A stretch of DNA of 46,285 bases, from positions 1 to 46,285 of the forward strand of contig LBTZ01000011.1 in the NCBI GenBank assembly GCA_000992325.1, written 5' to 3'. Positions 3,103 to 46,281 of the stretch are shown here, piece by piece. Below the pieces are notes generated by a model, which searched no databases, was not told the DNA's origin, and saw only the letters and a program-made list of their open reading frames with translations. The first letter of the stretch is position 1. The number at the start of each line of letters is the position of its first letter. The position numbers and the translations under genes are program-made. The DNA comes from Parcubacteria group bacterium GW2011_GWD2_38_11 (lineage in GTDB: Bacteria; Patescibacteriota; Minisyncoccia; Moranbacterales; GWC2-37-73).

Positions 3103-4314
3103 CTAAGTCCCTGTTTTATTTGATGAAATTTCTGAAATAGCACTGTTGATATTTTTTCCTGCCAAAATATTATTAATGACATCCTCATCTTTACAAGAAT
3201 AAGCATTGTCAGGAGAATAAAATTTCTTTTTAGGCCCGCGACAACCTCCGTTATCCTTATATAGCACTCCGAAATATGGCATCATAAACCCCATATTCTG
3301 CGCAGAGAATTTTTTATACAAAGAATCCAAAGTCTGAGCTCTTTTTTCTGGTTCCATTCGCGCAAAAATATCAAGATCATCACTAGGGATACCAGTCCAA
3401 TCCAAATGCAGCAAAACATTTTTAGCTTTAGCTGAAAAGTTTTTGTGCCACAAAAGCGCCCAGCAGCTTCCTCTTCCTGAAAAACATGGTCCGTCCTCAA
3501 CACTGCCATCTTCAGCCAGTCCAACTCCTCCCTCAATATAATCAAATAGTTTTAAATATTTTTCATCCGCAATTGATCCCGTTTGCGCGCCGATCACAAT
3601 ATCAACATTCTTTTCTTTTGCGTAAGCGCGAATTTTGGAGATAATCTTGGGTGCATAATCTTTTTTTGCATCTTCTTGCATATAAATCTGACCAAATGTA
3701 AAACTCTGCACTCCAGCGTCAATAGCCTTTTGCGAAATATATTGAATATAATCACGATATTCCTCACTGGCAAAAGTTGGCTTACAACTACCCTCACCCC
3801 AAACATTTTCACTACCGTCGCGACACATTTCTCTAAAATCGAACTCTTTATTTTTAAGCTCATTGAAATAATGCGCCCTGAAGTTTATAGCTTCAGCAAT
3901 AAACATTCCATACACTAAATCTTTTTTATTGATCTGACCCATCACATATCCCACCGTTTCAAAATCTGGGGGCTTAAGCCAGGTCTCAATCGCGCGATGC
4001 AAATAATAACAATTAGATCTGTTGATGAGTGCCACAAAATTTTCATTTTCCGGATTATACTCCGAAAGCAGACCGTCTGCCACACAACCTTGAGCTTTGA
4101 GTTTTTCCATTGATACTGGCGAAGGCTTGGGTCGCTCAATTATATTAAAAGACAAAATTTTATGTTGCTTCTTGGTGACAATAACCATTTCAGGCTCTTT
4201 GAATTCCAGATTTTTAGACATCAACACAAAAAATCCCCCCGATGCAATAGCGGCGACTAAAATAATAACTACAGCAAAAGAAGTCTTGATTTGATGTTTT
4301 AAATCAATTTTCAT
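3103..4314 (-). CDS. Membrane-anchored extracellular protein of unknown function
   Basis: One N-terminal transmembrane segment (about residues 12-31) follows a short cytoplasmic stretch (MKIDLKHQIK), so the remaining 370 residues should lie outside. The outside part contains at least eight cysteines (for example SNCYYL, EMCRDG, GSCKPTF, GPCFSG, GSCWAL, GGCRGP, YSCKDE), which suggests disulfides. Segments such as VDIVIGAQTG and NVLLHLDWTG alternate like strands of a TIM barrel, so a glycoside-hydrolase-like fold is possible, but I see no catalytic signature I can name. It is a stand-alone gene ahead of rubrerythrin with about 50 nt between them. Confidence 0.8.
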   Translation of the reverse strand: MKIDLKHQIKTSFAVVIILVAAIASGGFFVLMSKNLEFKEPEMVIVTKKQHKILSFNIIERPKPSPVSMEKLKAQGCVADGLLSEYNPENENFVALINRSNCYYLHRAIETWLKPPDFETVGYVMGQINKKDLVYGMFIAEAINFRAHYFNELKNKEFDFREMCRDGSENVWGEGSCKPTFASEEYRDYIQYISQKAIDAGVQSFTFGQIYMQEDAKKDYAPKIISKIRAYAKEKNVDIVIGAQTGSIADEKYLKLFDYIEGGVGLAEDGSVEDGPCFSGRGSCWALLWHKNFSAKAKNVLLHLDWTGIPSDDLDIFARMEPEKRAQTLDSLYKKFSAQNMGFMMPYFGVLYKDNGGCRGPKKKFYSPDNAYSCKDEDVINNILAGKNINSAISEISSNKTGT

Positions 4315-5327: not shown

Positions 5328-6275
5328 CTACGCATTTTTAACCATAAATCGCACAATATCTTCCACCACATTTCGTGTTTGACCATGCGTTGGATTATAG
5401 TGAATATATAGATCAGGCTTTCCATTTATCTCAATAATATGAAAGGATTGCTGCGACGGATCCTTGGAAATATCACTGCACATAACATCAATGCCGACAA
5501 GATATTTTCCCACAACCTTAGATGCTGCCACGCAAATTTTTTCAATATCAGGGTGCACACTATCAGTAACATCTCTTGTTTCACCGCCTTCCGCCAAACA
5601 AGAACTTTTTTTAATATACGCTATTTCATTTTTTGTCATCACGCTTTCCAGCGTAAAATTTTGCTCTTTTAAAATTTGCACCAACTTTTCATCAAATTCT
5701 GTTCGCTTTTCTGTTGAGTCTTGTTTTTCTTCAATAATCTTGCGCAAAGTAGAAACCCCATCACCCACCGCATAAGGAGGAATCATTTCAAGTGCCCCAA
5801 TCACCTTTTCATCCAACACAAGTAATCTGTATTCCTTCCCAAATACCATTTCCTGTGCGATCATACTTCGATAATGTGGCAACTCTTCTTCCAATAAAAT
5901 CATTGCATCGCGAATATTTCCAATAAGGGGGAATATTCCCCTGCTATTAGAACCCTGGGCATCTTTCAGAATAATCGGGTATTTAAGCGCGCTCAGCTGT
6001 TTTTCCGCTTCTTGCTTGATAAAGCTCTTTTTATAAAAACATTCACTTTGAGGGGAAGGCAGATTATGCGCAAGAAGAAGTTTATGCGTAATATCTTTGC
6101 AGCGAGTCAACTGCCCACTAACAAAAGACTGACGAGTGATAGAAATTTTACGTTCGAGCAAAATACGCTTTCCCAAAACATTTATATAAAAACATCCCCG
6201 TTCAGGAACGAATTCTTCGATAGTGCCACCCATATTTAAAATGGCATTTTTGATAATCAGGGGATTTTTTTTCAT
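5328..6275 (-). CDS. ATP-grasp ligase, cyanophycin-synthetase/GshAB-like
   Basis: This is an ATP-grasp enzyme expected to form an amide bond by way of an acyl-phosphate. The fold is visible in LKYPIILKDAQGSNSRGIF (lysine and glycine loop, about residues 95-115), in VFGKEYRLLVLDEKVIGALEMIPP, in the VGDGVSTLRKIIEE stretch typical of cyanophycin-synthetase and GshAB ATP-grasp domains, and in the C-terminal FHIIEINGKPDL metal-binding end. The N-terminal Mur-like half of true cyanophycin synthetase is absent (315 residues in all). The substrate is unknown. A consensus promoter precedes it (6344-6316). Confidence 0.82.
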   Translation of the reverse strand: MKKNPLIIKNAILNMGGTIEEFVPERGCFYINVLGKRILLERKISITRQSFVSGQLTRCKDITHKLLLAHNLPSPQSECFYKKSFIKQEAEKQLSALKYPIILKDAQGSNSRGIFPLIGNIRDAMILLEEELPHYRSMIAQEMVFGKEYRLLVLDEKVIGALEMIPPYAVGDGVSTLRKIIEEKQDSTEKRTEFDEKLVQILKEQNFTLESVMTKNEIAYIKKSSCLAEGGETRDVTDSVHPDIEKICVAASKVVGKYLVGIDVMCSDISKDPSQQSFHIIEINGKPDLYIHYNPTHGQTRNVVEDIVRFMVKNA

Positions 6276-39594: not shown

Positions 39595-40251
39595 CTATTT
39601 GAGGTTCTTGAGCACTTCCCTAAAACGGAAATATTCATTCAAACGCAATCCATCCCATTTTCCCAAAAATACATTGATTGGAATTGTAATTAAAATAAGC
39701 CACGGGAAAGCTACGATGCCTTTTATCAAAGCTGGCCAACTTGCCAAATAATATCCAACGAGAGAAATCACCAATGTTTCCACAGCCAAAATAAGAGCTG
39801 CTTTATTGCCCTTTTCAATTTGCGCTGCCACAAATTTTTCCACAATCGTAATCATAATCAAAATTGGGAAAATTGAAACCGCAGCCAGACCTGTTCTTTG
39901 CATCGCTCCTCCAAAACTAAGCAACATCAAAATTGAGAGCGCAATAATACTAAGTGTAATAGCTACACGCGGCAAATATAAAATGCGAAGACCCTTCAGC
40001 GCAAAGCGAAGCAACATCCCGACAAAAATAACCACAACAAAAATAAGAACACCGTAGCGAAGTTGTGGCACAGCCAAAAAAGCAAAGGTCACGATGGCTG
40101 GCGTATAAATACCAAAAGCTTTAATTCCGATTACCTGACGAAAAAAAGCAATCAATGTCACCACGATTGGCAACATCAAAAGCAAGATGACCGTATCAAG
40201 CGGCACACCTTGTCCAATAAAATATTTAATAAGCGGGCTGATGTTTTCCAT
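39595..40251 (-). CDS. 7TM membrane protein (7TM domain of the inactive-transglutaminase family)
   Basis: A 218-residue integral membrane protein with about seven hydrophobic helices. They include VILLLMLPIVVTLIAFFRQV, AIVTFAFLAVPQL, LIFVVVIFVGMLLRF, AITLSIIALSILMLLSFGG, ILIMITIVEKFVAAQ and FPWLILITIPINVFLGKW. FGIYTPAIVTFAFL and the C-terminal LRLNEYFRFRE fit the 7TM domain usually fused to an inactive transglutaminase. That periplasmic domain is absent here. It is the first gene of the four-gene cluster and probably anchors or exports its product. Confidence 0.82.
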   Translation of the reverse strand: MENISPLIKYFIGQGVPLDTVILLLMLPIVVTLIAFFRQVIGIKAFGIYTPAIVTFAFLAVPQLRYGVLIFVVVIFVGMLLRFALKGLRILYLPRVAITLSIIALSILMLLSFGGAMQRTGLAAVSIFPILIMITIVEKFVAAQIEKGNKAALILAVETLVISLVGYYLASWPALIKGIVAFPWLILITIPINVFLGKWDGLRLNEYFRFREVLKNLK

Positions 40252-40342
40252 AAAAGTAAGTTCTTAAAGTTTATAAGGTTATAAAGTTTATAAAGTTTAT
40301 AAAGTATCTGATTTTTACTTTACAAACTTTTTACTTATCACA

Positions 40343-40447
40343 TTGTACAACTACTTATTTTTTGGGCCGTTGATTGCGACAGTAATCAAGAGCATTTGAA
40401 CAAGATTTTCGTTCAAATGCGTGCCCAAAAGATAAGTAGTTGTACAA
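40343..40447. repeat. Structured repeat copy A (three-way junction)
   Basis: The 25-nt outer arms match at 24 of 25 positions (left TTGTACAACTACTTAT then TTTTTGGGC; right GCCCAAAAG then ATAAGTAGTTGTACAA). Inside are two hairpins. One is TTGATTGC-GACA-GTAATCAA (40370-40389). The other is GCATTTGAAC/GTTCAAATGC with a 9-nt loop (40392-40420). A second copy with different arm sequence but the same fold lies at 46161-46281. The rest of the 40252-40464 gap is made of TATAAAGTT-type repeats. Confidence 0.85.
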
Positions 40448-40464: not shown

Positions 40465-40995
40465 CTAGCAACTTTTCCTTATTTCTCTCATCTTCCTACT
40501 ATTCAAATGGCATAGTGCTATTGCGATTGCATCAGCGGTGTCATCTGGTTTCGGAATCTCTTTCAGTTTTAAAATATTCTTTACCATTAGCTGTATTTGC
40601 TTCTTTTCTGCCCTACCATACCCCGTCAAAGCCTGCTTGACTTGTAGCGGTGTGTATTCAAATATGCTAACACAAAATCTCTCAAGTGTCAAGAGTATAG
40701 ACCCTCGAGCTTGGCTCACTTTCATTACTGTTTTTACGTTCTTAAAAAAGAACAAATCCTCAACTGCAGCCTCATCAGGCTTATACTTTTTGATTATCTG
40801 TTCCAAGTCTTTCACAACTTCAAAAAGCCTCTCGGCTGTGCTGTTTTTTGGTGAAGTTGTGATGTGACCATATGCCACTGCGGTCACGCATCCCTTCGTT
40901 TCATCCAAAATAGCCCAACCAACAATGGCAGTTCCAGGATCTATTCCCAAAACCCTTAGGGTGCATTTATTTAATATGTCTTTTTGTTTAGGCAT
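40465..40995 (-). CDS. ruvC: Holliday junction resolvase RuvC
   Basis: The endonuclease that cuts Holliday junctions made during recombination. The RNase H-like fold starts LRVLGIDPGTAIVGWAILDE (first catalytic Asp). Further catalytic positions are in PDEAAVEDLFFFKN (Glu) and PKPDDTADAIAIALCH (two Asp). The central SQARGSILLTL helix and the GYGRAEKKQIQLMV segment are typical. At 176 residues it is full length. It follows yebC on the same strand, a widespread gene pair, with 159 nt of repeat-like AT sequence between them. Confidence 0.96.
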   Translation of the reverse strand: MPKQKDILNKCTLRVLGIDPGTAIVGWAILDETKGCVTAVAYGHITTSPKNSTAERLFEVVKDLEQIIKKYKPDEAAVEDLFFFKNVKTVMKVSQARGSILLTLERFCVSIFEYTPLQVKQALTGYGRAEKKQIQLMVKNILKLKEIPKPDDTADAIAIALCHLNSRKMREIRKSC

Positions 40996-41154
40996 TATTA
41001 GTGTTTCAAAAGAAGTTTTAAAATCTCAAGCCTCAAATCTCAATGCCTAACAAAATCCCAATAACAAAAATCTGAAAATTTACCCATTAGAACTTGAGTC
41101 ATTTATTTGTCATTTGAAATTTGGATTTTGACATTACAATTTGTAATCCCAAGA

Positions 41155-41871: not shown

Positions 41872-42008
41872 AATATTAGCTTCTTAGGCATTAGCTTTTT
41901 TATTTTAAAACTAATCCCAGAATTTTCTTTATAAACTTTATGAACTTTACAAACTTTATAACTATCTAAAGTCTACCACCCTAAACCACTCATTTCAAGC
42001 CAAAGCCT

Positions 42009-46160: not shown

Positions 46161-46281
46161 GTTGTTTTTTGTTTGCCTGTTTTCTTTTTGGCCAATTATT
46201 GCGACAGCAATTCTTGAGTTTTTGGCCATAGTCTTGGGTCAAAAACATGCCCAAAAAGGAAATGGGCAAACAAAAAAACAC
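46161..46281. repeat. Structured repeat copy B (three-way junction)
   Basis: The outer arms pair (left GTTTGCC...CTTTTTGGC, right GCCCAAAAAGG...GGGCAAAC). The inner hairpins are ATTGC-GACA-GCAAT (46198-46211) and GTTTTTGGCC/GGGTCAAAAAC with a 9-nt loop (46218-46246). The GACA loop, 9-nt loop and 10-bp stem match copy A at 40343-40447 while the stem sequences differ. The element may run past the right edge of the window. Confidence 0.8.

Follow-up and report, generated by a model that had tools for sequence, protein, structure and literature searches.

Bacteria harbour several families of non-autonomous miniature DNA transposons (MITEs), among them Correia/NEMIS, ERIC, RUP, RPE and YPAL (reviewed in PMC2229807). 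These are short, non-coding, A+T-rich intergenic sequences with terminal inverted repeats and target duplications, which can adopt a long stem-loop fold and are moved in trans; RUP also has ends in common with a resident insertion sequence. ISL3 insertion sequences measure ~1.2-1.55 kb, with repeats of 15-39 bp and duplications of 8 bp (PMC5395568). REPINs and the REP sequences associated with RAYT are small, palindromic, intergenic mobile DNA whose stems undergo paired changes (PMC3116915, PMC2817692, PMC3733652), and REPINs set the precedent for a mobile palindrome that acquires compensatory changes (PMC3116915).

The Moranbacteria repeat family described here has all of the MITE properties listed above, including, as in RUP, ends that also occur on an insertion sequence. 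It differs from the bacterial MITEs in that its centre is branched (a three-way junction) and covarying, in that one core occurs with two sets of ends, and in that the target duplication is 8 bp instead of TA. With ISL3 insertion sequences it shares repeats of 20-26 bp that start with GG and an A+T-rich 8-bp duplication, and a 1.4-kb element of this kind with matching ends is present in a sister genus (G014); unlike them, it has no internal transposase. In contrast to REPINs and REP sequences, it has target duplications and other ends, and its source genome has no RAYT.

The window that was analysed is the complete contig C11 (46,285 bases) of a draft genome (G000; 0.94 Mb, 39 contigs, 90.2% complete). 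A sequence-only reading of this window had pointed out two copies of a repeat built from a closing stem, a hairpin with a GACA loop, the trinucleotide GAG and a 10-bp hairpin with a 9-nt loop. Both copies are present where it had placed them and have this anatomy (Table 1), except that hairpin 1 of copy A consists of 8 pairs rather than 6. When folding was compared with dinucleotide shuffles, copy A reached z = -13.3 and copy B z = -6.7, and none of 200 shuffles was as good in either case. Terminal repeats of the two types described below were not recognised at copy A or copy B. Copy A is flanked by TTGTACAA, a possible 8-bp duplication, but this sequence is itself palindromic and lies inside the stem. 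An Rfam scan of the contig gave only tRNAs above the gathering score, and the matches at copy A, chiefly to miRNA precursors, were all below threshold.

Table 1. Positions of copy A, copy B and the genes next to copy A in the window
Feature	Position	Strand	Remarks
Copy A, closing stem and three-way-junction core	40343..40447	+	recognisable extent
Copy A, closing stem, 5' arm	40343..40367	+	25 nt, 96% complementary to 3' arm
Copy A, hairpin 1, TTGATTGC-GACA-GTAATCAA	40370..40389	+	GACA loop 40378-40381
Copy A, junction GAG, conserved	40390..40392	+	
Copy A, hairpin 2, GCATTTGAAC/GTTCAAATGC	40392..40420	+	10 bp, 9-nt loop
Copy A, closing stem, 3' arm	40423..40447	+	
Copy B	46165..46277	+	8 bases short of contig end; orthologous counterpart in G005
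Copy B, closing stem arms	46165-46194/46248-46277		30 nt, 87% complementary
Copy B, hairpin 1, ATTGC-GACA-GCAAT	46198..46211	+	
Copy B, GAG	46216-46218		
Copy B, hairpin 2, GTTTTTGGCC/GGTCAAAAAC	46218..46246	+	9-nt loop
ruvC (PF02075)	40465..40995	-	stop codon 17 bases past end of copy A
7TM_transglut-type membrane protein gene (PF14402)	39595..40251	-	other neighbour of copy A

Two other repeats were noticed nearby. An A+T-rich repeat (AAAGTTTATAAAGTTTATAAAG...) at 40250-40335 has an inverted partner 1.6 kb away (41927-41975) and matches dozens of sites in G000 and related genomes. Between ruvC and the YebC gene, a dispersed repeat of ~110 bases (41016-41135) is ~70-84% identical to many sites in G001 and G003 and may be another MITE family.

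That a covariance model of the two copies would reveal further members was borne out. The first model, built from copies A and B alone, gave 26 strong matches in G000 (E 8e-29 to 1.5e-4). Among the relatives it found 15-32 per genome in the genus of G000, 13-23 in the sister genus g7 and 16 in the sister genus g8. Genus g2 had a single match, the family's four remaining genera had none, and the rest of the order contributed one marginal match (E = 0.0017). With a second covariance model, the count rose to 15-44 copies per genome of the genus. The carriers among the relatives are public records named Candidatus Moranbacteria/Moraniibacteriota or Parcubacteria GW2011. No other carrier turned up among 380 genomes sampled from the phylum; since 11 candidates were scored per genome, which reduced sensitivity, this result excludes abundant families and not single copies. 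Pattern matches outside Moranbacteria-like records, in phages or other phyla, were unsupported by the covariance model and were discarded. At ~130-200 bp, the element is a non-coding near-palindrome with many dispersed copies, as is typical of MITEs (short, <300 bp, non-coding, many dispersed copies).

The flanks of several copies contain further inverted repeats ~50 bases outside the core. Terminal repeats of a first, ISL3-like type, GGRTCATACGCAATWTATGGTTC, are found on many copies. A search with the pattern TCATACGCAATNTANGGTTC returned inverted pairs ~155-200 bases apart in the genus, g7 and g8 that enclose the same fold, and the core lies within nearly every true pair of terminal repeats. 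Of the 64 candidate pairs, roughly a third of which are chance pairs as judged by eye, 15 have the same eight bases on either side directly outside GGR-TCATACGC, where 0.03 would be expected from pairing the flanks of different copies. If nine bases are considered, perfect cases fall to 2-4, and the duplication length is thus 8 bp. Flanking target duplications, which had been named beforehand as a feature to look for, are therefore present. Using a strict cut-off, both ISL3-like ends were recognised in 8 of the 76 copies surveyed. The insertion sequence in the sister genus (G014:C1:17798-19211) is 1.4 kb long, with 26-bp ends GGGTCATACGCAATAYAGGGTTCTAG and an 8-bp duplication CAAAAAAG, and encodes a broken transposase matching DDE_Tnp_ISL3. 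In another genome (G011), five contigs (L244, L247-L250) start inside the same ISL3-type transposase gene, and a second, different ISL3 element is thus multi-copy and unassembled there.

The second type of element is 131 bp long and combines the same core with TAGGACTTACGC/CAGAAGTTACGC terminal inverted repeats, which give it sharp ends (AGGACTTACGC...GCGTAACTTC). About 30 full-length copies, 88-97% identical, were found in four species (G000, G002, G004 and G005). Their flanks carry a duplication signal of ~5-8 bp (z = 6.3) that is shorter and less exact than that of the first type. The 131-bp type shares its hairpin 2 (GAGCTTTTGGATA...TATCCAAAAGC) with copies that have the arms and ends of the first type, for example L012 and L013. 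The occurrence of one hairpin 2 with both types of ends points to an exchange of ends and core. A search with the end pattern of the 131-bp type yielded no obvious insertion sequence as an autonomous partner. In G003 (genus g1), a high-copy family with ends TAGAACTTACGCATTTGC, which are related to those of the 131-bp type, occupies ~25 places.

Insertion was assessed by comparison with G005, which is near enough for this purpose (most neighbouring proteins are 80-98% identical). A minority of the G000 copies have a counterpart in the same place, most sites are without an element, and copies are mostly not common to different species. None of the five other members of the genus has copy A at its ruvC site (L175 in G005, L173 in G002, L184 in G004, L185 in G001 and L174 in G003). 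The copy with ISL3-like ends at G000:C4:26252, whose duplication is CAAAAAAA, corresponds to an empty site in G005, G004 and G002. The site of the 131-bp copy at C4:22729 is cleanly empty in G004, and in G005 it holds a remnant from which part of the element has been deleted. Two orthologous copies are >90% conserved inside, according to alignments read by eye, and the intergenic DNA on one side of them no longer aligns.

Some of these sites showed further peculiarities. The ruvC intergenic site of each of the five relatives contains a different, unrelated hairpin or A+T-rich inverted repeat, as if it were a landing spot for palindromic elements. A remnant of a 131-bp copy in L141 (G005, near 5504-5560) has lost the core and one arm; what is left is a portion of one arm together with the end of its partner. 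In the intergenic regions of G005 at sites 1, 13, 17 and 18, the place of the G000 element is taken by a different palindromic repeat (GTCATTCCCG...CGGGAATGAC) or by fragments of it. A 150-base repeat (L128:9300-19700, query 3495-3645), whose copies are mostly 84-97% identical, occurs many times in G001, with some copies in G000 and G005.

Across the family, terminal inverted repeats, target-site duplications and empty orthologous sites are found, and we are fairly confident that copies A and B belong to a family of MITEs of Ca. Moranbacteria. The element would consist of terminal inverted repeats on the outside, a long self-complementary stem inside them and a two-hairpin three-way junction at the centre. 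Transposases acting in trans would cut and paste, or copy, it as double-stranded DNA, and the ends may have been swapped between transposon systems while the core was retained. For the first type, an ISL3-family transposase is the best-supported candidate enzyme, because the ends, duplication length, size and repeats agree with that family (PMC5395568), and ends and duplication length are those of the insertion sequence in G014. The weak point of this assignment is that no ISL3 transposase gene was found in G000 or the other members of its genus (six genomes, one of them called 100% complete), where most copies are also without recognisable ends. Draft assemblies often lose insertion sequences. 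Either the insertion sequence has been lost or is unassembled, or the copies are old.

The sequence-only reading had also described paired bases that change together around a fixed loop and core, and the larger alignments agree with this. In 81 copies, both sides change in 27 of 33 pairs, with 360 such cells as opposed to 110 in shuffles. When 18 divergent copies were used, this was the case for 26 of the 33 pairs (98 cells vs 28.3 +/- 4.4), while GACA, GAG and GTGC stay the same; the covariation score in this set was 0.50 for the structure and 0.06-0.13 when it was slid by 1-3 columns. RNAalifold, unaided, arrives at the closing stem, the upper part of hairpin 1 and the whole of hairpin 2. 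Hairpin 1 is the weakest element (73% of cells paired). Among 19 copies that are <80% identical, conservation is 0.95-1.0 in the apical C-GACA-G of hairpin 1 and mostly ~0.95 in the junction bases CC, GAG and GTGC, in comparison to 0.59 in the stem of hairpin 1, 0.73 in that of hairpin 2 and 0.81 in the outer stem. Conservation is thus far higher in loop and junction bases than in the stems, for which reason the folded core itself may be under constraint; we consider the chances of such selection about even.

One alternative, which we regard as rather doubtful, does without selection on the fold: the elements would be ordinary palindromic MITEs, and template switching or gene conversion between the arms would keep these complementary. 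Such conversion has been described for long inverted repeats (PMC1803023). The outer arms do vary in blocks and yet remain complementary within each copy; in the related copies A, L010 and L191 they are largely different sequences, each of them self-complementary. They also show no strand asymmetry (G.T vs A.C mismatches, 12:20). Left unexplained by this process are the near-invariant GACA loop, GAG and GTGC among copies that are <80% identical. Two readings can thus be assigned to two parts of the element: arm-to-arm correction would account for the paired, fast-changing outer arms, and selection on the core for stems that covary around constant loops and junctions. The earlier proposal that the paired changes reflect selection on a folded RNA or single-stranded DNA is compatible with the inner core, but part of these changes could have come from arm-to-arm correction of palindromes, and the outer arms lack strand asymmetry.

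It seems unlikely to us that the three-way junction is a functional structured RNA or folded single-stranded DNA site carried along by transposons, with a protein that recognises it or a role in mRNA, and is retained after the ends decay. Such a function would agree with the covarying stems and conserved loop and junction bases, with the retention of the core between two different kinds of ends, and with the two orthologous copies that are well conserved next to intergenic DNA that can no longer be aligned on one side. If one strand folds, an excess of G.T over A.C mismatches is expected on that strand; this is seen in the inner stems (66:10 and 14:4), but it is confounded by shared ancestry and the model-based search. 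Together with the reversed ratio in the outer arms, this reduces the asymmetry, which we had considered as a proof of RNA, to a hint. Against such a function, most copies are not common to different species, and there is no Rfam match. The gene orientation is also only weakly biased: the apparently strong preference in G000 (~15 vs 3 tandem neighbours) shrank to 35 antisense vs 20 sense tandem neighbours in a larger set (p = 0.06) and was dropped as a main argument. Median distances to the neighbouring genes are 58 bases (stop codon upstream) and 102 bases (start codon downstream). We would accordingly give a host or RNA function of the core a rather low probability. In one tentative version, which we do not favour, the three-way junction would be a folded RNA or single-stranded DNA module with a function of its own and a specific protein that binds it. 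It would have spread by taking on ends from two or more transposon systems, would outlast the decay of those ends, and would be either domesticated in Moranbacteria genomes or a parasite of them.

A REP/REPIN-type element moved by a hairpin-requiring, single-strand RAYT (Y1) transposase would likewise be palindromic and intergenic with paired changes, as are REPINs (PMC3116915), but it is highly improbable and for clean-ended copies largely refuted, given that Y1_Tnp is absent in G000 and, out of the five other members of the genus, in the four genomes G001-G004, each of which has 15-44 copies, that 8-bp target duplications are present and that the ends are long inverted repeats and not a GTAG/CGTC-tagged hairpin. 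Of the sequence-only suggestion of a hairpin-dependent mobile element with its enzyme elsewhere in the genome, the mobility, the many copies and an enzyme in trans are thus retained, and the hairpin dependence is not: clean-ended copies have the ordinary terminal inverted repeats and 8-bp duplications that a DDE transposase working on double-stranded DNA would be predicted to yield.

MITEs as a kind have already been described in bacteria, so the initial impression that the repeat belongs to no described class was too broad; it does apply to this element family and its branched core, for which a literature search that scarcely covered subscription journals found no matching description. What is unusual is a branched, covarying core that is kept across different transposon ends. 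Small mobile repeats of the ultra-small Patescibacteria have hardly been described, and the same search found no account of such repeats there. The family constitutes a natural series: three genera contain hundreds of copies, some with recognisable ends and others not, close relatives provide empty sites, and the branched fold combines constant loops with stems in which changes are compensated. With such a series one can test whether selection, for transposition or for the host, acts on the folded interior of a MITE, or whether arm-to-arm correction simply keeps it palindromic.
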